DNA of 49,232 nt from a virus. The translations under genes were made by a program, and so were the position numbers. How positions within the stretch are numbered: the first letter of the stretch is position 1; every line of letters begins with the position of its first letter. The stretch spans positions 1-49,232 of IMG/VR virus record IMGVR_UViG_3300007609_000030. The stretch is one strand, 5' to 3'. Shown here in pieces: positions 13,436-36,473 of this stretch. The notes under the pieces are model-generated. The model saw nothing but the letters and a program-made list of their open reading frames with translations. It was not told where the DNA came from and made no database searches.

Positions 13436-15043
13436 CTAGAAATGCACTGTTTCCTCGGATAAATCTCTATAATTAGAACCAGACTTATAGTTTACTCCAA
13501 ATATCATCCCTCTATGATAAGAAAGTATTCTGGCTATATCGGACACTATATATATCTCTTCTGGGTGTATATCAAATATGATTGAATCGTGGACTTGAAA
13601 CATTAGCTGACTTTTCTTTCCATTCAACAATTCCTTCATTTCATATACTTTGTCAATCATGATCTCAGACGCTGTTGATTGAATGTAATTGTTAAATCCA
13701 GCATAAGATTTCTCTGGCTTTATAATAGAGCCCCACTTATTAACGATATACTCATTCTGATCAATCTCTTGCTGAATCTCGTCTCTTCTGATGAATATAG
13801 GACTAAGGAACCTCTTAACGTTAAGCATCGCTTCACTAGGATGGGATACAGTCTCTAATTTCTTCAAAATAGTAGCATCGCTTGCTCCATATAAAATAGA
13901 GTGATTAACAAGCTTAGCAACGTCTCTCTGCTCTTCTGTGAAGTCATAGGTGTCAAATATTATTCTAGCTGTCTCAGAATGAAGGTCTTTATCGTAATAC
14001 CTCTCAATGAACTCTTGATCTCTCGACAAATAAAGCGCTATTCTAGCCTCAAAAGAAGTGTAATCAAATTGATATATTTGACCTCCTCTGTATCTTGATA
14101 TGATCATTGCACGCTCCTCTCCCTCTTTAGGTAAGTTCTGAGGGTTGTATTTATCCTTACTCACAATCCTACCAGTTAGCGTTCTTTTGTTGGAGTAATT
14201 GATTTTAGATAACTTTGCATTCTCTCTGTATATAAACTTTAGATTCTTTTTTAAGTTATAAGAAAATGATACATATCTACTTGACATCCACCTGGTGATC
14301 TTATCTCTCACGCACATTCTCTTAAAGAATCTTTCTTCATCATCATTTAAGTCGGCCAGAGGAACTTTACTCATAAGAAATGGCACATACTTACTAACAT
14401 CAATATTTGGAACAATCTGAAAATACTTCATAGGAGTTTCAATTCCAAACTTTATCCATCTGATAATATCTAAAGCCCTTATGTTAGATAGCAGATCAAG
14501 ATCAGCATAATCTTCAATCCCATTGTATGAATATATGATGCAATTAAGGTTGTTAAGAACTCTTGCTACAGTAAACTTAAAATCTTTCTCTGTAACCTTC
14601 AATGACTTGACATTTATGATAAAATTATTATCATCATTCCTCATGTACAACGCACCATTATTAAAGTGCACATAAGTAAGTTCATCGTGATTTATATTTT
14701 CTACTAAAAATTTATGCAAATCGCCATGAAGTATTGAATCGTATAGCTTAAAGTCGCTAGGTAGCCAATCGAACAGGTATTTGTTTACAAACTCATCAAT
14801 TTGCTTATAGTAGTCATTTTCATCAAGTTCTTTGCACTCAATCTCATTGTACGCCCAAAATAAATTATGAGTAACCTCTTTAGAATTTATGTCTTGATTT
14901 GGAAATCTATGCTTTACGGAATTCCAACCTATCATTAGAGTTGGTACATCGAAGTAATTCTCTTCTGAAATGTGTTGAGTTATCTCAACAGGATAACCCC
15001 CAAGATACTCCTTAAGAGAATTGGTTTTTTCTGTTGTCTCCAT
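13436..15043 (-). CDS. Family A (Pol I-like) DNA polymerase without exonuclease domains
   Basis: About 535 residues. Polymerase motifs: A QFDYTSFEARIAL near residue 325 (metal-binding Asp present), B RDVAKLVNHSILYGAS near 376, and C FQVHDSIIFDI near 483. In motif C the usual VHDE reads VHDS: the metal-binding Asp stays and the next Glu is Ser. The region before the palm shows no DxE exonuclease motif, and there is no 5' nuclease domain. It is shorter than a Klenow fragment. I start at ATG 15043 (METTEK) because a host-type promoter predicts a transcript start near 15067; ATG 15067 and a TTG at 15076 are alternatives. A family C polymerase is encoded elsewhere in the window, so this one may serve repair, gap filling or initiation, or be the main replicase. 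Confidence 0.92.
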   Translation of the reverse strand: METTEKTNSLKEYLGGYPVEITQHISEENYFDVPTLMIGWNSVKHRFPNQDINSKEVTHNLFWAYNEIECKELDENDYYKQIDEFVNKYLFDWLPSDFKLYDSILHGDLHKFLVENINHDELTYVHFNNGALYMRNDDNNFIINVKSLKVTEKDFKFTVARVLNNLNCIIYSYNGIEDYADLDLLSNIRALDIIRWIKFGIETPMKYFQIVPNIDVSKYVPFLMSKVPLADLNDDEERFFKRMCVRDKITRWMSSRYVSFSYNLKKNLKFIYRENAKLSKINYSNKRTLTGRIVSKDKYNPQNLPKEGEERAMIISRYRGGQIYQFDYTSFEARIALYLSRDQEFIERYYDKDLHSETARIIFDTYDFTEEQRDVAKLVNHSILYGASDATILKKLETVSHPSEAMLNVKRFLSPIFIRRDEIQQEIDQNEYIVNKWGSIIKPEKSYAGFNNYIQSTASEIMIDKVYEMKELLNGKKSQLMFQVHDSIIFDIHPEEIYIVSDIARILSYHRGMIFGVNYKSGSNYRDLSEETVHF

Positions 15044-15073
15044 AATGATTCTGCAAATCTTGAACATACGGGA

Positions 15074-15105
15074 CAAAGATAGTTATTTTACTTTTAAAAG
15101 AGAAA
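15074..15105 (-). promoter_or_regulatory. Host-type promoter for the family A polymerase
   Basis: TTTC (15102-15105), a 20-nt spacer, then TATCTTTG (15074-15081) on the coding strand. It has one mismatch to TTTG-N20-TAnnTTTG. It lies right after the stop of the baseplate-hub gene and restarts transcription for the replication block. It decides the start codon (ATG at 15043). Confidence 0.65.
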
Positions 15106-18100
15106 TTAAATTCTATCTTGATAGGTTTGTAGGAAATATGAAGGATAATCCGAGTGAGCAGTGTTATTATTTTCTACAACCTCTCCATTTGCACTAGACA
15201 CCTTAGCTATAAGATCATCAATAGAGCCATAGGATTCAGGAGTCTTGTTAGATGCATTGTAACTCCAGTTAGACTTACGTGTATCAAGAACGGTGTTACT
15301 TCCGTAGTTAGCACTATCCCACTGATACTGATTATTTTTAGATGCAACTGGGTCACATAATCCAAAAAACCTTAACGATGGACTATAAGAAGATGATGCT
15401 ATCTTACCTCCATCAGAGTATAAAATAACACTTCTAACTACAGCTGTTTTTCCAATATTATTAAGAAGACCGTTCATAGCAGTTGTTGCAACACCTACTG
15501 AAGAATTACGGTTTGCATATACCATTACTCTACTTTCAGATAAAGATACTGGAGCTCCATTTGCCACATCTGCTCTATACCCGCTTTGTGGAGCATTTGC
15601 ATTACCTTCTAATCCAGAAATAAATATACCAGCTTCTAATGAAACGCTAGAATTAGGAACTGTTATTACAAACTCATTTGACTCATCATAAGTAACTGTG
15701 TTTTTTCCTACTTCCTGACCAGAACCATCTACTATGTAAACAGCATAATTACCTCTTGACTCGACACTTTTCTCACCAGCCTGAGCAACGCTTTCCTCTG
15801 TAGGCTTATCAATCGGAATTCCAAGCTTATCTGGTAGATCATACCACTTATTGTGATCTCTATTCATTTTATTGCTAAACCCAAACATAGGTGTTCCTGG
15901 CCTATATTCCCAGTGCCATTCCTCTGTTGACACTGTTCTAACAAACCCATACTTATAAGCATTTAGTAGTAGCCACTCATATATTCCTTGATCGAAGTTA
16001 TTAAATTTCGCTCCACCACAATTAAGGTCAATAGCAAGACCAGAGTTATGATTTGAGTATCCTGGCCTAGCTGTATATGGGTCAAAAGCTGTAGATGATG
16101 CTGTTCTCAAGAAATTGTCATCATCTTTTTTACTTTTATCAATAACATTTGCAACTCTTAGTGAATACTGAGATGATGATATATGACTTCCATTAGCTCT
16201 CTTAAGTGTTTCAAATGGGTCTCTATACCCAGAAGATAAGTGTAGATCAACCCCATCAGCAAAAGCTGCATCTTGCATAGCCTTATACGCAGACAACACC
16301 TGTGCAGTAATAGGGTATCTATCAAATATATATACAGTTTCCTGAGAAATAACCTGACCAGCTGAATACATACTTCTTTGCCCTAAGAAATCATCTGAAA
16401 TATTATCAATAACATTTTGAGGCAGCAGATCAACTGGCTGAGAAACTGGACCCCCATTCAATCCATCAACAAATGTTTGTCCAAGATAATCACCAGGACC
16501 TGAAGTAAATCTACCAGTGGCACTTCCAGGAGAAGGTATTTTTCTTGCATACTGAGCATTTCTTTCTCTAAGAGCCTCGTCAAAATTATTATACAATGTA
16601 TTTGGAGCCTCAACTTCTCCTAAATCTCTAAAAGTTTGAAGTGTTATTGGCCTAATACCACCATAAGAATCACTAGCAAATCTCATCCTAATACCTTCGA
16701 GAGATGTTGTCATGTTATTTGGGTCAATCTGATGCTTAACCTTCATAACTTGGTAAAGACCTCCAAATAAAGGAGAATTTTCAAGATAAAAGAATTGCAT
16801 GGGATATGCTTGAGAATTACCGAGCATATCAACACTAGCTGTATATGATCTACCAGCAAGGACAGGAAGCATTGAACAATCTGTCGTTACTTTCTTGTTC
16901 TGATTCTCATTGTCAACAAGCCTCTGAAGGTTAACAATACTCTCGGCAGTTACCTTATTATCATCTGTACCAACTTGAAGGTTGCTCACAATCTGGTTGT
17001 CTGGACTACCGAACTTTATAACAAAAGAGTTTGCATTGTAAGTCCTGTGGTTTTCTGATAAAGAAAGAGGTGTTCCATCTGCATTCTTTGTTTTTGATCT
17101 AGACTCTGGAGTTGGTGTAAATAATACGTGGAAGAAGTTTCTTATCTGTATATTGGCTGGCTCTCTACTCGGAGAGTAAATATCTTTAACATTCAAGTAT
17201 CCTGGGTTTCCTGGTATAGGTATAAACAGGAAATTATTCTTTGTACAAACTTGTTGGATTATATTTAGAATAGTTGTATTAGCATTTGGCTTATACAAAG
17301 GTTCTAAATTTATAATAGAGTCTCTTACGTTAACTGGCTGACCTGTACCCGCAATTCTCTGAAGTGGATAGTCATAAATAAATGTTCCATCTGGAACCCC
17401 TGATGCATGATCTTTATTACTTATACTTAAACAATACAAGCTTTCATCAGCATTAGCAGGTTTTAATGATTGAATTTCTTCAGCAGTTAAGTTAGTTCCC
17501 TCTGCAAGCTGCTCTTTACTGAAGCAAACAACTTCATTATTCAATAAATCGAGGTGATTATCACCAAACCTTTTCTCAAGAACTTCAGCAACATTAAATA
17601 CGGGCTCATCCGAATCAACACTTTTATTTTCTTGAACATCTCCTATAAGACATCCAGCAGCATCAGTTTTATCAGAATAAGCAAGACTTTGCCATTGGTG
17701 GTAAAGGGTGTGCATTTGTTTGTATATCAAATTCTCTTGCTCTCCAGCCTTACCTAAAACTTCTCCAACTATCTGGTTTCTTTCGTCTATTATCCCTTCT
17801 ATTTTCTCTTCAATAAGCTCAGCACACTTTCTTATGTAAGCTCTTTGATTTCTACTCTGCCTAGTTGGCAGAAACATAGCCCAAACAAGACCTGAATCCT
17901 GACCTTCGTGTTGTTCAGTACATATAGTATAACCTATATTACCAGTATACAAAGCGTATTCCTGGCTTACTGAGCTTAAATCAGGAGTATCTGATGGACT
18001 CTCCTTAATGGCGCCATTAAATATAACTGTGTCTATAATATCATCAATTGCCTCTAAAGCGCTTAATGGAGACTTTTCTCCAATTCCATATATAGTATCT

Positions 18101-20814
18101 GGAGGGTTTTTTACACCCTTATGCCTAAACATTGTTCTTGGATTGCCATCACCGTAAGTAGAACCATCTCTATAATCCATAACGGTAGCAACTCTCCATA
18201 ACATATTCCTACCATTACTTAACTCAGTTGTAGTATCACCTTCATCTCCATACTTTGAATTTATAGGTACGTAACCAAGAGGCTCGTTTTTACCTCCATC
18301 TTCTGCATCTTTATTTTCATTTCTAAATTGAGAATCTGTAGGAGCCGAGTTAGCTTCTGTAGCCCTCTTATTAGAATCGCCTTCAAATATGACCATGAAA
18401 TTACTTCCAGCCCTAGTTGTTCCTTCTGGGAATGTGTATAAAAGTCCGTTATTTATAATTCTAGTTGCTGTAAAACTCTGAGGGTCAATAAAAGAAAGTG
18501 GATTTTGCGCATTTCTAACACCTTGACTCTCCCCTCCATTATCATCAAATGTTTCAGTAGGAGCCTCTCCTCCCACTTGATCTTCTCTCTTAGACTCTTC
18601 CTCCTCTATATCTTCATATATAAGTTGATCATTTTCAATCTGATAATTACTAAGAATTTCTGGCTGATAAAGTTCATTCCATATAGTTTGAAAGTTAAGT
18701 GTTTCTATACCAGCTGCAGAAAGAGATTGTTTATCAGTAGGAATAGTGTTTCCATTAAAAGAAATTTCGCTTGATGTGTTTATGCTTTCAATACTATTTC
18801 CTGTCCCAGCTAAATTATTAATATTATCCTGCTCTTCATCAGTACTAGCTGGCTCGGTCATTACAACCTTCCAATTAAAAGGACCTGCCTGGGCTTGAGA
18901 AATAGTTTGTATAGATTGCGCTCCAGTAATTAAGCTAATAATTCCACCATTGGGATTTACGTCTAAAGGAAAACCTTCACTACCATCAGAGTTAGCAATT
19001 GCATCAGCATCTTTTGTAAAGTATCTGTTAAAAAATCTAGCAAACCTTTGAAGGAGCAAAAAATCAACATCAGATAAATTCTTTATTATGCTATCTGTTA
19101 AATTTTGCATATCACGCTCAGCAAGCTCTTCAATAGATTGAATGTCGTCTCTTGCTCCTCCGAAAAAACCTTCGTTATAACTTCCTGGTAAATTAGGGTC
19201 ATCACTTCTTGTGAAGTAGCCTGCTATTCCTCCACGTATCAAAACATTGGTTGCTATATTTGTATAATATGACTTATATGGATTGCCTTCAGCTATTTCC
19301 ATATTATTTACTCTCTGCTTAAGAATAGAATCATCTTGCCCGTTCTGAGGGTTATTAGCGAGTAAGTCCTTAGATATACCTTCACTAACCGCTGAAATAA
19401 AATTCTGAACAAATCTCATCTCATTCTCATCAACCCCTAAATCAGGAACTCCTTTTAAATTATTTGAAGTTGCTGGAACTTCTTCTCCATCTTCGTTTAT
19501 AACAAGAGGAAACGCCTCTCCAATTATATTACCCTCACCCGCCTGATCAACTCTGGTGTCGAAATTTCTATAATAACCTTCAAGTCCCGCATCAAGAACG
19601 CTTCCTATTACATAGGCGCCATCTTTAGCAAGTTGTGAGAATATCTCTCCAATAGTTATTTTTTCAAGTTTTTTCTCAGAAGTATTAAAAACCCTTCTTC
19701 TGATTTCATCTTCTATTGCCTCAAGATTGCTATTTATTAACTGAGTAGCACCAGCTACAGCCTCATCTATTTGAACTCTCCTACCTCCAGCATCATTAAA
19801 ATCTTTCAAAAACTGTCCCCAATTTCTAGAAAGTCCTTCTCCAAATTTAGAAAATCCCGTCTGACCAAAAGCAACTCCGCCTAAATCTTCTATAGCCTGA
19901 ACATCCTCTGCACCCGCATCTCTATATCTTATAGAAAGTAATATAAAAGCATTTAATGCAGATAAAGTTCTTGGGTTACCTAAGTTTTGTTCTATTCTTT
20001 GAACGCTTTCTAAACCTTCTAGCTCTGATGTTTTAGGAATTCTTAAATCAGAAAACCCTTTTATACCCTGGTTATTAACTTCACCCTTTATTGTCTCACC
20101 CTTAGGAAGTATTTCTGTCACAATCATAGCTCTTGCAACATTGGACTTTATAGAGCCCATCTGCTTCCTTATTTCATCAAATTCCTTAGAGGTATCTTGC
20201 GTTTGTATTTCAACACGCTTACCAATCTTAATGAGATCAAACACGCTAGTTACGTTTCTAAGCCTTCGCCTTCTCTCATCTTCAGGTAAATCATCTGTTA
20301 TACTAAGATTATCTTTTCTAAGCCTCTTTGCTGCTAATAAATACAAAAACGGCATATCTGCGAAGAAACCCCACTGATTAGGTACAAATTCACATTTAAT
20401 GTCATATGAACCGTCAGCTGAATTAAATGATGTAGACGTTCTCTTTAGGTTAAGAACCCATGTAGCTGGCTTTCCTAAATATCCTTTAAATGAAAATAAA
20501 AACTTAGGAGGTGGCCAGTTAAATAAAATACTATAATCAATGCTTTGACCATCTTCATCAGCCTCTCTCTTCTGAGAACCAAACACTGTAGCACCATACA
20601 GGTCTTTAAAAGTTACTGTAACAAGTGGCTGAAGTGATGTGTTGATCTCAATATCAATACTCGTAATACCGAAACCAGTACTATTACGAAAGAATTCTGT
20701 ACTAAACATCTTTCTCCCTAAAAAGTCAAAGGTAGTTCCGTTGACGCAAGCCTCAAGCTTTACGTCAATGAAGAGGTCCTTCATTCTAAACTGTGGAATC
20801 GGTTCTTGCGCCAT
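15106..20814 (-). CDS. Giant baseplate hub / tail-lysin protein with M15 peptidase domain
   Basis: A 1902-residue protein. The N-terminus (about 1-180: KMFSTEFFRNSTGFGITSID, VTVTFKDLYGATVFG) is a beta-rich baseplate-hub-like domain. A long middle of coils and beta segments follows, with DNLQVGT/TSLEGIRMRF regions of tail-hub type near 1250-1400. Residues about 1490-1645 are an M15 (VanY/D-Ala-D-Ala carboxypeptidase-like) zinc peptidase: LHLSSGYRDP, HNSGLAIDL (His and Asp ligands near 1589) and EEWHWEY (third ligand near 1633). It should cut peptidoglycan peptides during tail penetration. A beta-rich C-terminal domain follows. In T4 the lysozyme is carried by gp5; here a peptidase is fused into the hub. 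It starts 3 nt after the gp53-like gene, under the late box at 21140. Confidence 0.85.
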   Translation of the reverse strand: MAQEPIPQFRMKDLFIDVKLEACVNGTTFDFLGRKMFSTEFFRNSTGFGITSIDIEINTSLQPLVTVTFKDLYGATVFGSQKREADEDGQSIDYSILFNWPPPKFLFSFKGYLGKPATWVLNLKRTSTSFNSADGSYDIKCEFVPNQWGFFADMPFLYLLAAKRLRKDNLSITDDLPEDERRRRLRNVTSVFDLIKIGKRVEIQTQDTSKEFDEIRKQMGSIKSNVARAMIVTEILPKGETIKGEVNNQGIKGFSDLRIPKTSELEGLESVQRIEQNLGNPRTLSALNAFILLSIRYRDAGAEDVQAIEDLGGVAFGQTGFSKFGEGLSRNWGQFLKDFNDAGGRRVQIDEAVAGATQLINSNLEAIEDEIRRRVFNTSEKKLEKITIGEIFSQLAKDGAYVIGSVLDAGLEGYYRNFDTRVDQAGEGNIIGEAFPLVINEDGEEVPATSNNLKGVPDLGVDENEMRFVQNFISAVSEGISKDLLANNPQNGQDDSILKQRVNNMEIAEGNPYKSYYTNIATNVLIRGGIAGYFTRSDDPNLPGSYNEGFFGGARDDIQSIEELAERDMQNLTDSIIKNLSDVDFLLLQRFARFFNRYFTKDADAIANSDGSEGFPLDVNPNGGIISLITGAQSIQTISQAQAGPFNWKVVMTEPASTDEEQDNINNLAGTGNSIESINTSSEISFNGNTIPTDKQSLSAAGIETLNFQTIWNELYQPEILSNYQIENDQLIYEDIEEEESKREDQVGGEAPTETFDDNGGESQGVRNAQNPLSFIDPQSFTATRIINNGLLYTFPEGTTRAGSNFMVIFEGDSNKRATEANSAPTDSQFRNENKDAEDGGKNEPLGYVPINSKYGDEGDTTTELSNGRNMLWRVATVMDYRDGSTYGDGNPRTMFRHKGVKNPPDTIYGIGEKSPLSALEAIDDIIDTVIFNGAIKESPSDTPDLSSVSQEYALYTGNIGYTICTEQHEGQDSGLVWAMFLPTRQSRNQRAYIRKCAELIEEKIEGIIDERNQIVGEVLGKAGEQENLIYKQMHTLYHQWQSLAYSDKTDAAGCLIGDVQENKSVDSDEPVFNVAEVLEKRFGDNHLDLLNNEVVCFSKEQLAEGTNLTAEEIQSLKPANADESLYCLSISNKDHASGVPDGTFIYDYPLQRIAGTGQPVNVRDSIINLEPLYKPNANTTILNIIQQVCTKNNFLFIPIPGNPGYLNVKDIYSPSREPANIQIRNFFHVLFTPTPESRSKTKNADGTPLSLSENHRTYNANSFVIKFGSPDNQIVSNLQVGTDDNKVTAESIVNLQRLVDNENQNKKVTTDCSMLPVLAGRSYTASVDMLGNSQAYPMQFFYLENSPLFGGLYQVMKVKHQIDPNNMTTSLEGIRMRFASDSYGGIRPITLQTFRDLGEVEAPNTLYNNFDEALRERNAQYARKIPSPGSATGRFTSGPGDYLGQTFVDGLNGGPVSQPVDLLPQNVIDNISDDFLGQRSMYSAGQVISQETVYIFDRYPITAQVLSAYKAMQDAAFADGVDLHLSSGYRDPFETLKRANGSHISSSQYSLRVANVIDKSKKDDDNFLRTASSTAFDPYTARPGYSNHNSGLAIDLNCGGAKFNNFDQGIYEWLLLNAYKYGFVRTVSTEEWHWEYRPGTPMFGFSNKMNRDHNKWYDLPDKLGIPIDKPTEESVAQAGEKSVESRGNYAVYIVDGSGQEVGKNTVTYDESNEFVITVPNSSVSLEAGIFISGLEGNANAPQSGYRADVANGAPVSLSESRVMVYANRNSSVGVATTAMNGLLNNIGKTAVVRSVILYSDGGKIASSSYSPSLRFFGLCDPVASKNNQYQWDSANYGSNTVLDTRKSNWSYNASNKTPESYGSIDDLIAKVSSANGEVVENNNTAHSDYPSYFLQTYQDRI

Positions 20815-20817
20815 TTA

Positions 20818-21123
20818 TTAAGCTTTATCTCTTCTTGAGCTGATTTTTAAACTAACTTCGTTGATAACATCCTGAAGTGGATATGGCACTCTTATCACTG
20901 TATCGTCTGGAATGTCGAATTCTAAAAAGTATTCTGGATTTGCCCAAAGTATAAGTCTCCAAAATGTCTCATCTTCATAAATCTTTCCAGCGATAGTGTC
21001 AAGTCTATTTTTTTGCTTATTGTAAGTGACGCTTTTATCAGTAACCCTTCTGTCTATTTCAACTTGAGGCATATTTCTAAGATTGTCATTATTCTTTAAT
21101 AAGCTATAAAAATTGTAAGGCAT
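20818..21123 (-). CDS. LysM-like baseplate wedge protein (gp53-like)
   Basis: A 101-residue protein with a LysM-type signature in its C-terminal two thirds: DTIAGKIYEDETFWRLILWA, then NPEYFLEFDIPDDTVIRVPY. That is an Asp-x-Ile-Ala start, Trp in the middle, Asn-Pro, and a final strand ending in Pro. T4 gp53, a wedge protein, has the same fold and size class, and small LysM proteins are found at the tail hub of many phages. It leads the hub operon (3 nt before the giant protein) and has a late-type box 16 nt upstream of its ATG. Confidence 0.75.
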   Translation of the reverse strand: MPYNFYSLLKNNDNLRNMPQVEIDRRVTDKSVTYNKQKNRLDTIAGKIYEDETFWRLILWANPEYFLEFDIPDDTVIRVPYPLQDVINEVSLKISSRRDKA

Positions 21124-21181: not shown

Positions 21182-24100
21182 TTAAGTAGACTTCTTTAGA
21201 GGGCTAAACATACCACCGTCATCCGTAGCAAGAGGTGGAGCTGCGTTAAACGATCTAAATGGACCAATCATGTTGAAGCTTATCGTAACAAGAGCCCACA
21301 TAGGCTGAACCCTTCCTCCTTCAAGTGTCCAAGGAGCATCTGCATAATCAAAACTAACACTATTAACGATGATGTCATGATTCCACCAATCTCCCAGGTG
21401 AATATGACACACTGGGGGCTTAGTAAATGAAAAACCTGTACCTGTTGTTCCAGAAACCCCTCCCTCTGCTGCAGCAGGCCTGGTAAGTTTAGCAAGAAAC
21501 TCTATTTTTCTAACAAAGTCAACCTTATCCCCAGAAAAATATGAAGGCTGAAACATAAGGCTTTGCTTCATGGTGTCAATTCTTACAATAGTATCTTCTG
21601 GCTTACAAACAGACTCCCCATTCTCGAACTCTTTCTTGGTTACGTTTACATTATAAATGTTAGAAGCCACCTGACTTGCTTCTGTGTAGTCTGTAACAGA
21701 GTTAAATTCATTATCAACTCCAACAATTGATTGCTCTGTGTTATTTATATTAGCAACAGCGTTAGATTGTCTTGTTTTAAGTATCCCTTCCTCAGTTCTA
21801 GCTTCATTAGCTTCCCTAACTCTGCTTTCCCTAGCTTTTTGACCATTAATTAAATCCTTAAAATTATCAAATCCGCTAGACTCTTTGCCAATACCTAACC
21901 AACCCTCATTCTCATCTACTGTGTTTACTTCTTTTTGAGCCTCTTGCGCAGTCTCAATCTGCTCTTTGTTTACATTTATTTGTTCATCTATTTGTTGAAG
22001 CTCCTGTCTTTGTTGCTGTTTAAGTTTTTCTAACTCTTGCTGCCTAAGTTTTCTAGCATCATTTTGAGCTTTATCCTTATCAGTAAAGTGTCTTGTAAAA
22101 GTAGAAGTTATCCTTTCGGCCCCATCAGATGAGTAGTCTCTACCAATATCAACAGACTGAGCATAGTCAGTTAATACATAAAATGATATTGTAGCATCCC
22201 TACTTGCATTATTGTAGGTATATATTGCTTCTGGCCTTCCAAGGAAATTTGTAGAGTTCCAGTTAGCATTCTCAGTATTTTGAATACTTTCAATGTATGG
22301 AGGGAAGAAGAACTGCTCGTTACTAGCATAATTCTTTATAAAAAACAATAATTTACCAGCCCCTTGAGGTGCGTATTGATTATTGATCGTAAACCTTTGT
22401 CTTGAAACTCTTGGTGAACCATCTCTATTCTTACCAGTTATGTATGCTGTATTATTCTGTGGGTCAAAGTTACCTCTTATAGAAGTTGGGTCATCATTAT
22501 TCCTAATTGTATTCATAACGTGCTTAACACCTCTTCTTCCAGTTAGAAAATCTTCATCTTCAAACGGGTTTCCAAGAACTGTTTTAGCCATCTTAGATTC
22601 AGCAGAACCTTCTTCGCCTACATTAGGCCTTAGAATATCTCCATCAGAATCACCACCAGCGTAATAAGCACCAAGGTTGTTTGTTATAATTCCAGCTGGA
22701 GTAGTTATAGTTCCAACCTGATTGTTTGATCTAAATGAGCCTATGGTCTTTGAAATAAGGTCTTGAAATCCGTCTATAGATATACCTTCAAGATCATTAA
22801 GAGAACCTGGGTTTCCTGGCTGAAGTCTATTTATGTTAAACGCATTTTTCTCCTGACCATAATTTCTTATAGTTTGAGTTATAGAACCTTCCCAAAATGG
22901 CACATAAGTATTTTTCTTAAAGAAGTTGTCAACAAACTGACCACCTTTACCAAGCTCTGGATTAACTTCATACAAAGCGTCTGTTATAACCCTATCTCTT
23001 CTTCTCGTAGGGAAATCTGTCCTTTGAGAAACACCATAAAGTTGCTGAAGCTCTCTAGCTCTACCAACAATATAATCATCAGTAGCAAATATAGCTTTTG
23101 AAGTCGGTGTAGAGTATGGGTCTAGCCTGCTATAATCAACAAGATTGGTATTGTAGCTACCCTGAACTATTCTACCAAGCTTCCAGTTTTCATTTGTTGA
23201 AGTATACTCATCCTCACCATATTGCCACTTATTCTCTTTTATATTGTTAGTTCTGAATACTTCAGAATCATTGAATAGATTTGAATTATTTGGACCATTC
23301 TTAGATAAAAGAAGTTGTCTTAGCAATATACCCTGAGTAAACACTCTTGAAACTCCAAGGAACGAACTTGTACCCGCTCCTTGTACGTTTACACCAATAA
23401 GACCAAACCCTTTGTTAGCTGCTAGTGCATCATTTCTTAATTGAGCTGAATCTAACAATAGATCGCTATCATTAGGTACGTTTGGAGATAAATTATCTTC
23501 TCTTAGCCCAACTGAATCGACAGCAAGGTTACTATTAATAGATACATTACTAGCAAGATCATCTTCTCTATATCCAGAAGAATCGGATTGAAGGTCTGTT
23601 TCTATAGGAACGTTAGCAGACAAATCATCTTCTCTGTATTGTTCTGAATCTACTACAAGATTTGAGTTGCTTGGTACATTTGCAGATAAATCATCCTCCC
23701 TATACTGTTCTGAATCTTCTTCTAAATCAGTCTCAATAGCAACATTAGCAGATAGGTTATTAAACAAGTAAGGAGTAGAATCAACTATAAGATCACTATC
23801 AATATCTACGTTAAATGACAAGTCATCATTCCTGAAAGGAATTGAATCTGTTTCTAAATCACTCGTGTTGGGGCTATTAAATGAAAGGTCATCTATTCTA
23901 TACGGAACCGAGTCAACCTCTAAGTCTGTTGTATTTGGAGTGTTGAGCGACAAGTCATCTTCTCTGTATACAACTGAGTCTGTCTCAAGATCAGTTATGT
24001 TAGGAGTGTTTAAAGATAAATCATCAGCCCTATATGTAACTGAGTCAACTTCTAAATCAGTTTCAACTGGATTGTTAAATGATAAATCATCATTTCTATA

Positions 24101-25567
24101 AGGAGATGAGTCAGTTTCTAAATCAGTTTCAATTGGATTGTTTTTAGAAATATCATCTTCTCTAAACTGCTCTGAATCTCTTTCAAGATCACTTTCACTC
24201 TCTACGTTTAGAGATAAGTCATCTGACCTAAACTGCTCTGAATCTTCTTCTAAATTACTATTGCTTGGCTTGTTTTTAGAAAGGTCATCATTCCTATAGT
24301 CAACAGACTCTGACTCAAGATCAGTAGTCTTTGGTTTATTCTTAGAAAGATCATCGTTTCTATATTCAACAGAATCAGTCTCAAGATTAGTGCTTCTTGA
24401 ATCGTTCTTTGATAGATCGCCTTCTCTATAAATTTCAGAATCACTTTCAAGGTCAGAATTTTTAGGAGTATTTTTAGAAAGATCATCAATTCTTGCCTGC
24501 TCCCCAGTCTCTTCTAAGTCAGGTTGACCAGACGGTGCGTTATTAGAAAGCTGACCCTGCCTTATTGACTCAGAATCAGACTCAATATTAGAATCTCTAC
24601 CAACTGTTTTGTTTGATAAGTTTGCTCTTCTAAATGCAATACTATCCTTTTCAAGATCACTATCTTTTTCGACATTCTTAGAAATATCGTTTTTTCTAAA
24701 TTGGTTTCTAATATTTTCAGAGTCTCTTAATAAATCTTGATCTTTAGATACATTTTTAGCTGTATCATCTATCCTATAAGCTTCAGAGTCTTCAAGAAGA
24801 TCGTCCTCCTTGATTCCAGGGGAGTTTTTAGACAATGCATCTGACCTCTTTGCATCAGCTGTATCATCAATGCTCTGAGGTTTTGTGGTATTTTTACTTA
24901 AGTTCGCCTTTCTGTATGCTTTAGAATCTTTCTCTAAATCACTATCAATAGGAACATTCTTGTGAATATCTTTAGTTCTAAAACGATTTCTATATTCTTC
25001 AGAATCTCTTAATAAATCCTGATTCTTGTCAACATTTTTAGATATAGAGCTGTCTCTATAAGCAGGACTATCCTTTTCTATATCACTCTCCGAAGAAAGG
25101 TTCTTTCTGTTTTTTGAAATGTTCGATCTTCTTGCTTGATCTGAGTCCTGACCTAAATTACTATCCTTGGGAACATTTTTTGAAATAAGGTTATCCCTCA
25201 TAGTCTCAGAACTTCTTAGCAAATTTTCTCTATCTTGCTGTATTTTTTGTCTGGCCAGAAGTGCTTTTCTAAAATCTACAGAAATTTTTTCAAGATCAGT
25301 TTCTTCTGAAACAAGCTTAGAAATAAGATTATCTCTTATAAGCTTAGAATCCTCTTCAATATCACTATTGATTGGTACATTTTTAGACATTAGCGTTTCC
25401 CTTGTTCTCGGATAAAGAACATCATATACACTCTCAGGTCTAACAACATTTTTAGAAAGCAATCTCTTTCTAGCATCTGCAGAAAATTCTTCGTAGAATT
25501 CCTTCAGCCTCTGCTCTTGTCTTGCTGCCTCGTCATTAGGGTCAAATAATGGGAAACCGTCTTCCAT
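21182..25567 (-). CDS. Repeat-rich baseplate/tail protein (1461 aa), possible gp48/gp54-like tube-initiator C-domain
   Basis: Residues 58-713 are about 28 tandem copies of a 22-residue unit (pattern D-L-S-x-N-x-P, then S-D-L-E-x-D-S, then Y-R-x-D). A lone copy lies at 753-774. Units from 339 onward keep an exact 22-residue register and are very acidic; earlier ones are Lys-rich and carry insertions. The C-terminal half is different: FFPPYIESIQNTENANWN, GRPEAIYTYNNASRDATISF, a Gln/Glu coiled coil near 1120-1170, and a closing beta domain (GDWWNHDIIVNSVSFDYADA). This resembles proteins at the tube-baseplate junction, which fits its place between tape measure and hub genes. That assignment is moderate. 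The repeat function is unknown. A late box lies 13 nt upstream. Confidence 0.75.
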   Translation of the reverse strand: MEDGFPLFDPNDEAARQEQRLKEFYEEFSADARKRLLSKNVVRPESVYDVLYPRTRETLMSKNVPINSDIEEDSKLIRDNLISKLVSEETDLEKISVDFRKALLARQKIQQDRENLLRSSETMRDNLISKNVPKDSNLGQDSDQARRSNISKNRKNLSSESDIEKDSPAYRDSSISKNVDKNQDLLRDSEEYRNRFRTKDIHKNVPIDSDLEKDSKAYRKANLSKNTTKPQSIDDTADAKRSDALSKNSPGIKEDDLLEDSEAYRIDDTAKNVSKDQDLLRDSENIRNQFRKNDISKNVEKDSDLEKDSIAFRRANLSNKTVGRDSNIESDSESIRQGQLSNNAPSGQPDLEETGEQARIDDLSKNTPKNSDLESDSEIYREGDLSKNDSRSTNLETDSVEYRNDDLSKNKPKTTDLESESVDYRNDDLSKNKPSNSNLEEDSEQFRSDDLSLNVESESDLERDSEQFREDDISKNNPIETDLETDSSPYRNDDLSFNNPVETDLEVDSVTYRADDLSLNTPNITDLETDSVVYREDDLSLNTPNTTDLEVDSVPYRIDDLSFNSPNTSDLETDSIPFRNDDLSFNVDIDSDLIVDSTPYLFNNLSANVAIETDLEEDSEQYREDDLSANVPSNSNLVVDSEQYREDDLSANVPIETDLQSDSSGYREDDLASNVSINSNLAVDSVGLREDNLSPNVPNDSDLLLDSAQLRNDALAANKGFGLIGVNVQGAGTSSFLGVSRVFTQGILLRQLLLSKNGPNNSNLFNDSEVFRTNNIKENKWQYGEDEYTSTNENWKLGRIVQGSYNTNLVDYSRLDPYSTPTSKAIFATDDYIVGRARELQQLYGVSQRTDFPTRRRDRVITDALYEVNPELGKGGQFVDNFFKKNTYVPFWEGSITQTIRNYGQEKNAFNINRLQPGNPGSLNDLEGISIDGFQDLISKTIGSFRSNNQVGTITTPAGIITNNLGAYYAGGDSDGDILRPNVGEEGSAESKMAKTVLGNPFEDEDFLTGRRGVKHVMNTIRNNDDPTSIRGNFDPQNNTAYITGKNRDGSPRVSRQRFTINNQYAPQGAGKLLFFIKNYASNEQFFFPPYIESIQNTENANWNSTNFLGRPEAIYTYNNASRDATISFYVLTDYAQSVDIGRDYSSDGAERITSTFTRHFTDKDKAQNDARKLRQQELEKLKQQQRQELQQIDEQINVNKEQIETAQEAQKEVNTVDENEGWLGIGKESSGFDNFKDLINGQKARESRVREANEARTEEGILKTRQSNAVANINNTEQSIVGVDNEFNSVTDYTEASQVASNIYNVNVTKKEFENGESVCKPEDTIVRIDTMKQSLMFQPSYFSGDKVDFVRKIEFLAKLTRPAAAEGGVSGTTGTGFSFTKPPVCHIHLGDWWNHDIIVNSVSFDYADAPWTLEGGRVQPMWALVTISFNMIGPFRSFNAAPPLATDDGGMFSPLKKST
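23429..25396 (-). repeat. Tandem 66-bp coding repeats (22-residue unit, about 28 copies)
   Basis: The repeat encodes residues 58-713 of the large baseplate protein. The stretch 23429-24553 (17 units) is strictly 66 bp per unit. Units 24554-25396 vary from 66 to 138 bp. The protein unit is conserved while the DNA of neighbouring units differs at many silent and non-silent sites, so the array is old and kept by selection rather than freshly duplicated. Confidence 0.9.
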
Positions 25568-25624: not shown

Positions 25625-28600
25625 TTATGACACAATCTCTGTATCATCAACGATGAGACTCTGCAAGTCTCTACCATTGAGCTTGAGATTAATTTCAATT
25701 TTCTTTTTACCACCACCTTTAGAGCTACCACCTTTTCCGATGTTTGCAAGCTTAGCTAGTGCTTCAGCAATCTTGTCAATTGAGGTCACCATTCCTCCGC
25801 CAAATGAACCAATAGCCATAGACCAAGCAAGACTTCTTAACATCTCTAATTTACTTACATCAAGATTTTGTGCAGCAGTAGACAGTTTTTCAATACCATC
25901 AGCAAGACCGCCAATAGCATCAGACATCTTCATAAGAGGGTCAGCAGCTACCATAGCTATACCAGCAAGCATCTGAAGTGTATCAAGTGGCCCTCCACCA
26001 CCAAGAAGACTTCCAAGTCCGCTCATAAGCCCTCCAATTAACGCACCAGCTGAAAATGCCATTAACCCAGGAACAACAGCAAGAAGTGCGTCACCCATTT
26101 GAGCAAATGTACTCCAATCTACGTTACTAACTCTTTCTGCAAGAGATACGATAGGTATTAAGGCAAGACCACCAAGAGCTAATCCAGGTGCAGCTAACAA
26201 CAAGCCAAGTCCAGCTAAAATAAGACCAGGCGTTGCAGTAAGAAGCGCAGAACCGAGATCACTTAGCCAAGTGAAGTCTAGTCCCTGCATCATTTGAGAT
26301 GCTTTTGCAAACACCATCATGGATTCTCCAAATATCATAAGCCCTACACCAACACCAATAAGTGCAGCAACACCAATAACAAGAGCTATAAGCTGAGGAC
26401 CCATAAGCAATGCTCCAATAACTGTAAGTGCAATTATAACCGCAGTAAGAACACCTATACCCATGAGAACACTACCCCAGTCAACGTCAGTGAACATGGT
26501 AAGAGCAAATGCAAATGGAATTAACGCTGCTCCAGCAATAGCAACTGCCAAGGCTCCTTTAAGCACGTTCTTAAGATTAGAGCCCATGATTCCAAACCCT
26601 CTAGCAATTGCGCTAAACCCTGCTGTAACAAGCTTAGATAAAGCTCCTATACCTGCAAGAAGTAGTAATGTAGGCATACCAGGAAGTAATAGAACTAATG
26701 CTGGACCAGCAAGCGCAACTGCACCAATACCCTGAAACACTTTCTTATCACCCATTGCCTTCAAGCCTTCTGCAAGTGATTTAAGACCACCTCCAGAGCC
26801 TTTAGCCTTAGCAGTCTCCCCACCTTTGTCTGCAGTTTTATTAATTTGTCCAGCAAGCTTATCCTGGCCTCCGCCACCTCCGCCACCAAATCCAAGTAGC
26901 TTCTTGCCTTTTGCAAACATGTTTTTCAATCCACCAGCTACAGCCTTAAATCCTTGAAGGGCCATTCCAAGCTTAGGAGCAACAGCTGCAAAGGCGATCA
27001 GACCTCCTACAAGCATTTTTATAGGACCTGGCATTGAATTTAGTGTCTGTATAAAGCTGGTGAGCATTTTTATAAATGGCTCAAAAACAACAAATAAATT
27101 AAGAATTGCATCTTTAAATGCTGATATGCTATCTTGAAACGACTGATTTGCTTCTGCTTGCTCAGCTAGAGTTTTTTCTTTTAACTTCTTTTCTTCCATA
27201 AGAGCGTTTATCTCAGTCTGACTCAAATCCTCAAGATCATCTACATTAGAAATATCAATACCAGCTCCTGTAGCTAAATCTTTAAGCTCATCTGTCATCT
27301 CTATCTTTCCGCCATCCATTTCGGTCATGTCGTTAAGGAAGTTTCTGGCCTCATCTGGTATCGCATCACTTAAGCCAAGTAAGTCAGCTTTCTTAGCGTC
27401 CTCTGCATTCTTCTGAATCATTTTCTGTATACTATCGAGAGATTGTCCAGTTGCGTCTGCAACAATCTGAAGACGGTCAACATCTACTGGGTCAAACTTA
27501 AACTCACCATCTTCGTTAAATGCTCCTATATCATCACCCATATTGGTTAATATCTTCTGAAGTTCTTCTGGACCCTTACGTGCAGCAGATAATAAGTCCA
27601 TAGGATTAATATTAGCAAATGAACCACCAGCAAGTTGAAGTTGTGTTGCCATATCCATAGCGCCCTCTATTGTTCTAGCTCTCTTTGCAACATCAAATAT
27701 TTCATCAACATTCATACGAAGTCTCTGGGCTGTAGCTACCATCCTAGTTAATGACTCTTCTCCGCCCTGGAATCCCATCTGACGCATCTTGTCAATATTT
27801 CTAGAAACACCTTGTAAAAGCTTCTTGGTATTAACCCCAAACAACTTAGCAGTCTTGTTAGCCCCTTCCATGTATGATTCGACCTGCTCTGCAGATTGTC
27901 CAGCACGCATCATTTCACCAGCGATTGTACTTATCTCTTCAGAAGATATACCAGTAGCTTTCTCTATGGCTACAAAATGCTCTACAGCTCCAGCAAGATA
28001 GTCTTGATCAATGGTTGCGAGCTCTTCTCCAAGAGAACCCATTAGTCCTAAAGTATCCCCCACGCTCATGTTAAACCTAGCTGCCTCAGATGTAAGATTT
28101 GCCATTTCATAAGATGCTGTAATACCTTTATCTACAACAAAACCAAAGTTTTTTCCAGCATCTGAAATAGCTTGATCATATTCAAGCATTCTAGGAATAA
28201 TTCCTGAAGAAAGATTTTTTGCCCCTTTTTGAAACGCATCAGTAAGACTAAATACTTGTTTTGTTGATTTTTGAGCTTCTTGTGAAACTTGCTCAAATTC
28301 CCCAGACAACTCTTCTGCAAATCTAACTGCATTTTTTTCACTTTCTACAAAACCATCACTATGATATACAATATCTTTAAGAAGACTTGATTGGTCTTCA
28401 ACAAGACCATTCAGACCCTTTTGCTGAATTTGTATTAAAGCCTGTATTCTCTCTTGCTCATTAAGCCCAGACATAAAATCTGGATGCTTTGCAAGTATCT
28501 TTTCATAATGCTCTGAGTGATCTTCAAAGTACTTTTTTTGATCGTCTATAAATTCATCGCTTTTCCCTATAAAGTCCTCAAAACTTTTCTTATGCTTTTC

Positions 28601-29053
28601 AAACGTATCAGAATCCTCCTCCCTAAGCTTAGCAACTTCTTGCTGAAGCCTAAGCACATCATTAGCTGTCTTTAACTCCTCTTCAAAACCAACTGCTTCA
28701 GCTATTTTTTTAAAGTCTTCTGGGATAGATGCAGTAGTTGACTTCATGCTATCAAGACTCTTCTCTATATCAGAAAACTTACCACTTATGGTGTCTCCAA
28801 TCTGCTCGTATGCTGTATTTATTTTCTGAGATAAATTAGAAAGCTCCTCTTTTTGTTTGACTATCTCCTCCGTAGTCTTATCCATTTCCTTGAAGAATGC
28901 TGCTCCAGATATACCGAAAAGCTGAGTAGCCACATTACCAAAAGCATCATCAATAGATTTGACATTTTTTTTAGCTTGCTCTGTTTTCTTTATAAAATCC
29001 TCAACTGCCTTTAAGGATTCTTTGTTTATATCACCACTGTTCTTCTTGGCCAT
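25625..29053 (-). CDS. Tail tape-measure protein
   Basis: A 1142-residue protein with the classic layout of a tape measure. A long helical/coiled-coil N-terminal half (residues 1 to about 650, Lys/Glu-rich) is followed by strongly hydrophobic segments (about 780-990, for example LTAVIIALTVIGALLMG and LIALVIGVAALIGVGVGLMI) thought to enter the host membrane. A Gly-rich hinge (KKLLGFGGGGGGG) lies between them, and a short beta tail ends the protein (KIEINLKLNGRDLQSLIVDD). It sets tail length and is packed in the tube before injection. It lies between the membrane-protein gene and the repeat-rich baseplate gene, with its own late box and a terminator just upstream. Confidence 0.88.
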   Translation of the reverse strand: MAKKNSGDINKESLKAVEDFIKKTEQAKKNVKSIDDAFGNVATQLFGISGAAFFKEMDKTTEEIVKQKEELSNLSQKINTAYEQIGDTISGKFSDIEKSLDSMKSTTASIPEDFKKIAEAVGFEEELKTANDVLRLQQEVAKLREEDSDTFEKHKKSFEDFIGKSDEFIDDQKKYFEDHSEHYEKILAKHPDFMSGLNEQERIQALIQIQQKGLNGLVEDQSSLLKDIVYHSDGFVESEKNAVRFAEELSGEFEQVSQEAQKSTKQVFSLTDAFQKGAKNLSSGIIPRMLEYDQAISDAGKNFGFVVDKGITASYEMANLTSEAARFNMSVGDTLGLMGSLGEELATIDQDYLAGAVEHFVAIEKATGISSEEISTIAGEMMRAGQSAEQVESYMEGANKTAKLFGVNTKKLLQGVSRNIDKMRQMGFQGGEESLTRMVATAQRLRMNVDEIFDVAKRARTIEGAMDMATQLQLAGGSFANINPMDLLSAARKGPEELQKILTNMGDDIGAFNEDGEFKFDPVDVDRLQIVADATGQSLDSIQKMIQKNAEDAKKADLLGLSDAIPDEARNFLNDMTEMDGGKIEMTDELKDLATGAGIDISNVDDLEDLSQTEINALMEEKKLKEKTLAEQAEANQSFQDSISAFKDAILNLFVVFEPFIKMLTSFIQTLNSMPGPIKMLVGGLIAFAAVAPKLGMALQGFKAVAGGLKNMFAKGKKLLGFGGGGGGGQDKLAGQINKTADKGGETAKAKGSGGGLKSLAEGLKAMGDKKVFQGIGAVALAGPALVLLLPGMPTLLLLAGIGALSKLVTAGFSAIARGFGIMGSNLKNVLKGALAVAIAGAALIPFAFALTMFTDVDWGSVLMGIGVLTAVIIALTVIGALLMGPQLIALVIGVAALIGVGVGLMIFGESMMVFAKASQMMQGLDFTWLSDLGSALLTATPGLILAGLGLLLAAPGLALGGLALIPIVSLAERVSNVDWSTFAQMGDALLAVVPGLMAFSAGALIGGLMSGLGSLLGGGGPLDTLQMLAGIAMVAADPLMKMSDAIGGLADGIEKLSTAAQNLDVSKLEMLRSLAWSMAIGSFGGGMVTSIDKIAEALAKLANIGKGGSSKGGGKKKIEINLKLNGRDLQSLIVDDTEIVS

Positions 29054-31297: not shown

Positions 31298-32374
31298 TTA
31301 TTTTTTACCTTTAGCCTTCGCCTGCCTCATAGCTTTCTCTTCAGCTTCCTTCTTCTTAGTGAGCTCTTCATTGATTCTATTTATGAACCATCTTCTTTCA
31401 GTAACAGGCATTTTCTTGGCATCTTCTATACTTATCCCTTTGCCATAGTATGTGATCAAAAACAATTCCTCTTGAACGTTCTGCCTAAATGTAGACGGGA
31501 ATGCTAGGAAGCTATGTGCACCGCCAAAATCATACTCAGTCTCATGTCCACAACTTGCACATGTATGCCTAACCGTTGCGTCAACACCAGGTATAACTTT
31601 TGAAAGAAACTTCTTCACTCTTCTTATTTGCTCAAGATTAAGCCTTCTTATAACGCTTTCGATTATTCTTTTATCTTCACAGCCATTTATTGATTTAGTC
31701 ATGTATATGATCTTATCCATCTGACTGACTTTAGCTCTTTTCATACCGAGCTCTTCAAAATAAGTAAGTGGCTTAAACATAAAAACCATTTCAGTTCCAT
31801 CTAGAAGCATTGGAATCATGCCATTCTCAGGCACAACGATTACATCTTTCATTTGAAATGATGAAAGTCTGATAGGGACTTCTTCTGTAAATCCGCAACT
31901 CTTGCAATCAAGCTCAACCTCCATCTTATCACCGTATGCAAATGATCTTAAGAATAACCCAATAGCTTCCACATCTCCAGTAAGCAAGTCTTCTGGCTCC
32001 ACGTTTTGCTCAACAAGTATATTCCTGAGAAGAAACTCCATAGCCTTTCCAGATTCTACCAGAAACTCACTTGTAAGGAGGTTTTCCTCAATGTACGTCA
32101 TTTGATTTAGAAGTAGATAATTTTCCTTGGTAGGATAAAAAAGGCCTCTTGAGGGTATAAACAACATCTCAAAAGGCCTCTCAATATGACTATCCTTCTT
32201 TTGCTGCTGAACTATTTCTGCAAGCTTCTTGACCTCTTCAGTATTTTCACTGAACTTAGTCTTAAGCTCGTCAATGGATTCTAACAGCTCAGAAGAATTT
32301 TCTCTTTGTTTTAATACTTCTTCTAAATCACCAATAGACCTAATGTCCTTGTTTTCTTGATGATCTTCTTTCAT
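31298..32374 (-). CDS. gp26-like baseplate hub/assembly protein, paralogue 1
   Basis: A 358-residue protein of the T4 baseplate (gp26-type) family. It has the opening IPSRGLFYP motif near 75, a middle with EDLLTGDVEAIGLFLRSFAY, and two Cys pairs likely binding zinc (DCKSCGF near 157; TCASCGHE near 270). A Glu/Lys coiled coil of about 65 residues precedes the domain, and a Lys-rich tail ends the protein. It starts one base after its paralogue at 32376-33341, and both share PSRG..Y, the Cys pairs and a run of similar helices. The two may form hub subunits or an assembly pair. The assignment to gp26 rests on motif resemblance. Confidence 0.75.
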   Translation of the reverse strand: MKEDHQENKDIRSIGDLEEVLKQRENSSELLESIDELKTKFSENTEEVKKLAEIVQQQKKDSHIERPFEMLFIPSRGLFYPTKENYLLLNQMTYIEENLLTSEFLVESGKAMEFLLRNILVEQNVEPEDLLTGDVEAIGLFLRSFAYGDKMEVELDCKSCGFTEEVPIRLSSFQMKDVIVVPENGMIPMLLDGTEMVFMFKPLTYFEELGMKRAKVSQMDKIIYMTKSINGCEDKRIIESVIRRLNLEQIRRVKKFLSKVIPGVDATVRHTCASCGHETEYDFGGAHSFLAFPSTFRQNVQEELFLITYYGKGISIEDAKKMPVTERRWFINRINEELTKKKEAEEKAMRQAKAKGKK

Positions 32375-32375
32375 A

Positions 32376-33341
32376 TTAATCTACGTCTGGATAGAATAGC
32401 TTAGGTGTAATTGGAATATCTCTAATGTCCAGCTCACCACATGCAGGGCACTCAAATTCATAAGACAAATCAAGACCTGGCTCAATCCTTCTTACATATT
32501 CTCTAAAGAACATTGAATCCTTCATTGGCATTGCTGCGATAAACTTCTTAATATATAGCTTATCTCTGTTTCCATTAACTTCCATGATCTGAAGAACATA
32601 CTTCTCTGTTACGAGCTTGTTTATTCTCATTCCACCTGACTTCTTAGCATTGTTTTCTGCAAGCTTAGAAAGTCTCTTTTCATCACGACCACTTAATAGT
32701 CTGAATTTGATGGTAAGCTTCATTACTGGTAGCTCTACTTCATACTCTCCATCATCATCTGGCATAATCTCAAGCGGCTTTGCCTTTAACTGATCAAGAT
32801 CAATTGTTGGCTCATGAACCTGTCCGCATGCTGGACAAGTCATCTCACCTGGAACGTATTCATTACCAAGCCCAGTCTTTCTAATCTGAACTAACAGGAA
32901 GTTCCTATCTCCAGATAACATTGCTTCTGGTCTTAGGTCTGGGTCCTTAACCGCCTTATCAAGAAGAACATCAAGAACTCTACCAGATTTAATAAGGTCT
33001 GGTGAGTATAGAATATCATCTTCTTCTGCTGTAAGGTATTTAATTGTTACTGAAGATTTTCCATTTGAATAGAACTTACCTCTTGAAGGTAGTTCAATTT
33101 CTTCCGTAGGAACCTTAAACTCAGTATCTATAAAGTGTTCTGGAATATTGTGCTCCTTGGCAATGTCAGAAACATTTTCCTTAGGCTCTTCTTTAGATGG
33201 AGCCTGGCCTTGTGGAGCCTGATTTTGTGGAGCTTCGTTTTCCTCTGGAATGCTTGCTCCTTGTTGTTCTGGCTTCGGCATGTTAGACTTGTTATTGTCT
33301 TTTTCTTCTCCGTCACCTAATACGATTTGGTCGTTGGCCAT
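32376..33341 (-). CDS. gp26-like baseplate hub/assembly protein, paralogue 2
   Basis: A 321-residue protein. The first 75 residues are disordered and rich in Gln, Pro, Ala and Glu. The family domain follows: EIELPSRGKFYSNGKSSV, EAMLSGDRNFLLVQIRKTGL, and the zinc-ribbon pairs CPACGQVHEP and CPACGELDIR, ending in a short PDVD tail. The domain plan is the same as in the neighbouring 358-aa protein, which marks an old duplication. A late-type box lies 21 nt before the ATG and would drive both genes (one-base gap). Confidence 0.77.
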   Translation of the reverse strand: MANDQIVLGDGEEKDNNKSNMPKPEQQGASIPEENEAPQNQAPQGQAPSKEEPKENVSDIAKEHNIPEHFIDTEFKVPTEEIELPSRGKFYSNGKSSVTIKYLTAEEDDILYSPDLIKSGRVLDVLLDKAVKDPDLRPEAMLSGDRNFLLVQIRKTGLGNEYVPGEMTCPACGQVHEPTIDLDQLKAKPLEIMPDDDGEYEVELPVMKLTIKFRLLSGRDEKRLSKLAENNAKKSGGMRINKLVTEKYVLQIMEVNGNRDKLYIKKFIAAMPMKDSMFFREYVRRIEPGLDLSYEFECPACGELDIRDIPITPKLFYPDVD

Positions 33342-36327: not shown

Positions 36328-36473
36328 TTGTTTATTCTTATTAAAACCTTTTGTGGACACTTCTTAGTTAACCTCTTGTAAAATGGCATCTGATAATATG
36401 CTATTATCTCTTTATAGTTTACAAGAGCATGCTTCTCATTATCTGAATATATTTCAATAACCTCAAGTCCCAT
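36324..36473 (-). CDS. Small coupled protein between dnaE and the HNH gene (49 aa)
   Basis: ATG at 36471-36473 overlaps the TAA of the polymerase gene (TAATG). Its TGA (36324-36326) overlaps the ATG of the HNH gene (ATGA). Both joins are used elsewhere in this genome. The 49-residue product begins MGLEVIEIYSDNEKHALVNY and ends with a basic stretch (RLTKKCPQKVLIRINK). I do not recognise it. The double overlap makes chance unlikely. Confidence 0.6.
   Translation of the reverse strand: MGLEVIEIYSDNEKHALVNYKEIIAYYQMPFYKRLTKKCPQKVLIRINK

Follow-up and report, generated by a model that had tools for sequence, protein, structure and literature searches.

Why should a gene placed like those that join a phage tail tube to its baseplate encode hundreds of residues of short repeats? 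The question is raised by the IMG/VR virus record IMGVR_UViG_3300007609_000030, of which we analysed the whole stretch of 49,232 nucleotides (positions 1 to 49,232; the window). An open reading frame (ORF) on its minus strand, at 21182-25567, encodes a protein of 1461 amino acids (aa) in which 30 consecutive repeat units occupy aa 37-713 (window 23429-25459), as determined by a profile scan and registration by hand. The unit number is fixed among relatives of the same type, which make up a group of uncultured large phages, the array is under strong purifying selection, the short cap that precedes it is conserved, and the gene lies between those of the tape measure protein (TMP) and of a small baseplate protein. 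The protein most probably links the tube of the tail to its baseplate, and we read it as a tube initiator whose LysM partner is encoded by a separate gene. For the array itself we tentatively propose, with a probability of about 0.4, an extended docking arm strung between the N-terminal cap and the tube-initiator ring.

Architecture of the array

A first-pass annotation, made from the DNA letters alone, had reported about 28 tandem units of 22 residues at 23429-25396. The tandem array is borne out by self-identity at a lag of 22 residues, which reaches 0.60 over aa 362-713, whereas 10,000 shuffles gave no value above 0.19 at any of 15 lags; in the irregular half the best lag is still 22 (0.21). 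The reported interval does lie within the array, but it spans units 2-30, which makes 29, and the full array has 30. Likewise, the 22-residue register is exact as described, but in the last 16 units (units 15-30, aa 362-713) and not in 17. The contrast in charge that had been noticed along the array is also real: units 1-14 are irregular (22-26 aa), near-neutral and Lys-rich, with a summed net charge of about -7, whereas the acidic units 15-30 sum to -67. Units 7 and 11 are each extended by 4 residues, of the RNQFRKND type. Past a 39-aa insert without repeats there is one further, isolated unit. The parts of the gene, all on the minus strand, are as follows.

21182-25567, minus: whole gene, 1461 aa; N-terminal cap, 30-unit array and C-terminal tube-initiator-like core
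25460-25567, minus: N-terminal cap, aa 1-36; mean majority-residue fraction 0.81, matching the core
24485-25459, minus: units 1-14, irregular (22-26 aa), near-neutral, Lys-rich
23429-24484, minus: units 15-30, exact 22-residue register, net charge -2 to -7 per unit
23312-23428, minus: conserved non-repeat insert, aa 714-752 (GFGLIGVN...FTQGILLRQL)
23246-23311, minus: isolated 31st unit, aa 753-774
22133-22402, minus: core part 1, aa 1056-1145, with a W...(F/Y)(L/M)GR...Y.Y...R motif common to Mel-JY01, immuto, LR756508 and DP phages
21593-22132, minus: coiled-coil insertion within the core, aa 1146-1325, poorly conserved
21185-21592, minus: core part 2, aa 1326-1461

Unit number is constant and the array is under selection

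Scans of IMG/VR yielded nine relatives of the same type (L001-L004, L008, L009, L015, L016 and L027; L011, L012 and L014 encode a protein identical to that of L009), giving a set of ten distinct proteins with that of the window. A scan of a genome contig set found no relative. Array identity to the window ranges from 37 to 67% among the nine, and by our count all ten proteins have 30 units. Seven of the ten, the window included, align without any gain or loss of a unit, and the 30 units each of L016 and L027 register one to one. The array region of L015 is about 65 aa longer; we read it by hand as 25 ordinary and 5 long, degenerate units (about 31-50 aa), a total of 30 that depends on the reader. 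Some units of L015 are recent copies, with DNA identity of up to 94%. Wherever the start of the upstream TMP is clear, this protein is also of nearly constant length (1124-1148 aa) in same-type relatives.

It had been suggested that the DNA copies diverged while the protein pattern was kept. Within the window array the copies share on average 59% of their DNA (maximum 76%) and 55% of their protein sequence, values that do not by themselves prove selection. Selection on the array pattern is shown by the ratio of nonsynonymous to synonymous substitution rates (dN/dS) between relatives: wherever dS could be estimated, this ratio is about 0.13-0.22 for the array and 0.15-0.18 for the core, although several of the dS values exceed 1 and are therefore rough. 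Conservation, expressed as the mean majority-residue fraction, is 0.81 in the cap, 0.77-0.80 in the core and 0.60-0.73 in the array.

The core weakly resembles tube initiators of contractile systems

The genes that surround the array gene are those of a tail and baseplate region.

31298-33341, minus: two baseplate genes of T4 gp26/gp51 type (PF12322)
25625-29053, minus: TMP, 1142 aa, directly upstream of the array gene; BLASTP E 1e-18 to the annotated immuto tape measure
20818-21123, minus: 101-aa LysM/gp53-like baseplate protein, encoded immediately downstream of the array gene; matches the PHROG baseplate wedge (E 1e-7)
15106-20814, minus: hub-like protein, 1902 aa, with a VanY carboxypeptidase domain

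The order is two gp26/51-type genes, two others, TMP, array gene, 101-aa gene and hub-like gene. The 101-aa protein is presumably of LysM type, judging from its gp53-like PHROG match. Lying directly after the tape measure gene, the array gene shares the slot of the T4 tail tube cap and tube initiator, gp48 and gp54 (T4 order gp51-27-28-29(TMP)-48-54), and in adjoining both the TMP and a LysM-type gene it is placed like a tube initiator gene of a contractile injection system (CIS).

The window protein has no meaningful match in Pfam, PHROGs or NCBIfam, and sequence searches of the PDB with profiles of the core and of the array found no match. The core is related to a protein of the Microcystis phage Mel-JY01 (hhalign profile-profile E 5.5e-6; tblastn E 2e-3) and, via the Mel-JY01 family, is linked to proteins of immuto, LR756508, RM378 and the loci L041-L043 and L112. 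The proteins of DP phages, which are distant homologues, match the Pfam family CIS_tube at E 0.002-0.009, below the cut-off. Membership of the T4 gp48 or gp54 families by sequence was rejected, as hhalign of our alignment A9 against gp48 and gp54 alignments, themselves small (3-4 sequences), gave no significant match.

AlphaFold2 modelled the core poorly, with a predicted local distance difference test score (pLDDT) of 45. Most VIA-align matches to this low-confidence model are coiled-coil matches to the insertion of the core. Among the top 50, once the matches explained by this insertion are set aside, only baseplate chains of the Photorhabdus virulence cassette (PVC; 6j0n_b, Z 10.1, 117 aligned) and of the antifeeding prophage (AFP; 6rao_G, Z 9.9, 121 aligned) cover the core to either side of it, over about aa 1066-1441. 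A Foldseek search with the core gave weak matches, none of them at E 0.001.

The nearest known counterparts are CIS tube initiators (Alg5 and Alg7 of AlgoCIS, PMC8894135; AFP 6rao; PVC 6j0n; CIS_tube PF19266), to which the core shows a weak match in fold. The AFP and PVC chains in question have about 220 aa, whereas the window protein has in addition an arm of about 700 aa with 30 units and the coiled-coil insertion in its core; T4 gp48, of 364 aa, has no array either. Alg7 ends in a LysM domain, whereas here the LysM-type part is a separate neighbouring gene. In the cyanophage A-1(L), these roles fall to a tube initiator that is hexameric and to six LysM proteins (PMC10966104). It is because of the gene order, the PVC and AFP structural matches and this parallel that a tube initiator with a separate LysM partner is the most likely identity of the array protein, in agreement with the earlier assignment of its C-terminal half to the tube-baseplate junction. 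The core would then occupy a ring position in this phage.

Predicted structure of the arm

An AlphaFold2 model from ten sequences places one helix of about 15 residues in each unit and the N-x-P motif in the intervening loops. The helices are separate and no fold is predicted between units (pLDDT 52; predicted template modelling score, pTM, 0.17). A Foldseek search of BFVD with the array returned nothing below E 2, and a Pfam search gave no repeat family match for the window protein. The model does not support a compact solenoid, a solenoid being one of the forms envisaged in the first-pass annotation; the alternative offered there of an extended spacer is compatible with the data. The model fits an arm that is ordered only when bound, or flexible.

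Other lineages carry unrelated arrays or none

The earlier view that such an extension is not expected on a protein of this kind needs correction, as unrelated arrays occupy this place in no fewer than two further lineages. Mel-JY01 encodes a hypothetical protein of 2255 aa with a homologous core and about 22 units of 44 aa. One profile scan found 78 loci in IMG/VR, of which 45 distinct ones were measured together with their TMPs. Like the window, Mel-JY01 and these roughly 45 relatives have the gene at the locus after the TMP, a conserved peptide at the N terminus of its product and, ahead of the core, a long tandem array. Their units, however, are about 44 aa long against 22 aa in the window, aromatic-rich, unrelated in sequence to those of the window and labile in number. 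The N-terminal peptide, M[SA]L[VLI]DLxSDL[SA][KR][YF]R, is nearly invariant in 46 Mel-type proteins, and by eye a similar start (TDL+SL+YG) is seen in the array-less proteins of immuto and L041. Two nearly identical Mel-type phages (L037 and L039) are one unit of about 21 aa (TKLDDIKKFNTKPLSGLLGK type) apart at the start of the array.

The uncultured huge phage LR756508 has, at the same locus and before a related core, a long acidic N-terminal array of about 52 units (hand count) with a net charge of -237; its units are of 16-17 aa against the 22 aa of the window, the whole protein has 1579 aa and the TMP 1602 aa. No relatives of LR756508 were found in the viral contig set. The arrays of the window and LR756508 are hydrophilic with few aromatics. 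As far as can be seen, the unit sequences of the window, Mel-type and LR756508 arrays are unrelated, which either separate origin or divergence beyond recognition could explain.

Relatives without such an array, which had been named beforehand as potential counter-evidence, also exist: immuto (716 aa), the DP phages (325-329 aa), L041-L043 (446-479 aa) and L112 (465 aa), with TMPs of about 700-1186 aa. The local gene order is unchanged in immuto, the DP phages and L041-L043, and the array is therefore no general requirement of tail assembly.

The Mel-type family provides a rate against which the constancy of the window family can be judged. Array length must have changed 28 times or more on the Mel-type tree (18.9 substitutions per site). 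The same rate predicts about 7 changes over the window-family tree of ten proteins (4.96 substitutions per site), along which the unit number stayed at 30 without any change (P(0) about 7e-4). The test is rough, as it assumes one rate for both families and sets length in one against unit number in the other. Rates also vary between clades, since one Mel-type clade of nine members is likewise constant.

We found no description of such arrays in the literature searched, in which coverage of subscription journals was thin. The repeat arm seems to be a widespread part of phage tails that nobody appears to have described. Tube initiators in the systems studied so far are small conserved rings; a large arm of up to dozens of repeat units on such a ring, known with three or more unrelated unit sequences and, in one lineage, kept at 30 units over deep divergence, suggests a tail function that is missing from present models. 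Arrays of 7 to about 52 units, together with the array-less relatives, form a natural test set for that function.

Array length does not strictly follow tape measure length

A length gauge had been among the roles first suggested for the array. We used TMP length as a proxy for tail length and tested the relationship in the Mel-type relatives, as the window family is invariant in both quantities. Array length and TMP length are correlated (raw r 0.89, n = 38) when one clade, whose units have large insertions or unusual numbers, is left out, an exclusion made after the data were seen. Phylogenetic contrasts without that clade give r 0.68 (permutation p < 1e-4), and the downstream hub gene does not covary with array length (r -0.08). 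The contrast correlation falls to 0.44 with all 45 relatives, and also to 0.44 when two contrasts are removed. Unit count is not significantly associated with TMP length across all 45 (contrast r 0.21, p 0.16), and 7-31 units occur at TMP lengths of 1240-1300 aa.

Close pairs give the same answer. The TMPs of L049 and L052 are 89% identical without an internal indel, but their arrays are 82 aa apart net, a difference that includes two whole 44-aa units. The array also changes at constant TMP in L048/L084 and L096/L098, the three pairs spanning 56-96 aa. Collapse of repeats during assembly is an unlikely cause because the gained units differ in sequence from their neighbours. A strict gauge with one unit per ring is thus rejected for the Mel-type family.

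In two further pairs (L081/L083 and L044/L045) the cores of the array proteins are identical or 98% identical, and the TMPs are only 77% and 36% identical. Such pairing suggests, from sequence comparison, that the tape measure recombines apart from the array gene.

Possible roles of the arm

Under the docking-arm reading, the C-terminal core would form the ring by which the tube is attached to the hub of the baseplate, for which the weak fold and Pfam matches and the gene order are the basis. The 30-unit array would be an arm between this ring and the conserved N-terminal cap, which would dock elsewhere; conservation of the cap suggests that both ends of the arm are anchored. Each unit would consist of a short helix and an extended N-x-P linker, ordered only on binding, and the units would bind in succession, each to one of a series of repeated partner subunits of the tail or the baseplate. 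The constant unit number, the low dN/dS of the array and the single predicted helix per unit speak for this reading. That virions contain the protein, that a repeated partner exists and that docking takes this form are all presumed here. Several observations count against the proposal. The core model is poor and its Z scores of about 10 are little above the level that the tool calls common; the CIS_tube matches are below the cut-off and there is no significant profile match to T4 gp48 or gp54; no docking partner has been identified; and sheath and tube genes were not found on a 195-kb contig of a relative, which itself lacks most structural genes. Searches for sheath, tube, gp25 and Baseplate_J genes in the window-family records also found none, which shows little since the records are incomplete and hold few structural genes. 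The lability of Mel-type unit number (7-31) suits a loose spacer or surface arm better. We regard as doubtful a broader proposition, in which tube initiators of phages gained long arms of many units on several occasions and each unit docks in turn along the tail, the count being fixed in some lineages. The arm would then be a second periodic tail component beside the tape measure, of a kind not known from any characterised phage.

If the acidic array instead projected from the baseplate as a surface arm or whisker, it could hold the baseplate off the cell surface or be decorated, for example by glycosylation, for adhesion or shielding. This is a credible though somewhat unlikely explanation. 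It would accommodate the labile Mel-type numbers, the recent duplications in L015, the hydrophilic composition of the window and LR756508 arrays and the occupation of one place by three unrelated unit types, but in the window family it has to contend with a constant unit number, an exact register, dN/dS in the array as low as in the core, and a cap that suggests anchoring at both ends. That the array is a companion of the tape measure, with one unit per tail ring and a unit number matching tail length, appears improbable: the constancy of both unit number and TMP length in the window family, and the Mel-type contrasts without the insertion clade, would be expected of it, but the close pairs, the unit counts, the fall of the correlation to 0.44 and the TMPs of array-less relatives all speak against it.

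Still less probable is a segment needed only in assembly, which would chaperone the TMP or tube subunits and then be cleaved or left out of the virion. Its appeal lies in the adjoining TMP gene and in AlgoCIS Alg7, a tube-initiator protein with a cleaved linker (PMC8894135); we identified no protease or cleavage site, however, and the conservation of every unit is not obviously needed in a short-lived segment. A functionless by-product of replication slippage is very improbable. The units are tandem and L015 has recent copies, but dN/dS of 0.13-0.22 and a unit number fixed over very deep divergence largely refute it. The docking arm remains our preferred reading.

Further observations on the window and its relatives

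The contig of L009 (G001, 195 kb) holds no sheath, tube, gp25 or Baseplate_J gene that we could find and few other virion genes, so it probably belongs to a larger genome whose structural genes are scattered.

The hub-like gene, a single 1902-aa copy in the window, is present as two to three tandem paralogues in L016 (12807-17186, 17281-21414 and 21439-22116) and L027 (12480-16781 and 16835-17806), and these paralogues begin alike (GFYLDG.LT.IVDGS.YDFMGR).

At 46204-48318 on the plus strand, the window carries a 704-aa gene that fuses group 1 glycosyltransferase and S-adenosylmethionine (SAM) methyltransferase domains; its C-terminal third looks glycosyltransferase-like by eye, and it is the only large plus-strand gene among those read. 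A patatin-like phospholipase gene (45185-46117, minus strand; PF01734, E 1e-26) adjoins the terminase region and is also found in the 195-kb contig (G001 2942-3877).

Genes for a ribonucleotide reductase large subunit and for a DNA polymerase III alpha subunit with an N-terminal exonuclease domain lie on the minus strand at 6192-8762 and 36473-40624, and besides the latter there is a separate polymerase I-like gene (13436-15076). In the 195-kb contig (G001 8405-14076) the polymerase III alpha gene is apparently interrupted by an intein-like or homing-endonuclease-like insertion, where the ORF begins with MRLSKIKSINKIDYKNKVYDL and picks up again at SPPDIDIDF; that of the window is uninterrupted.

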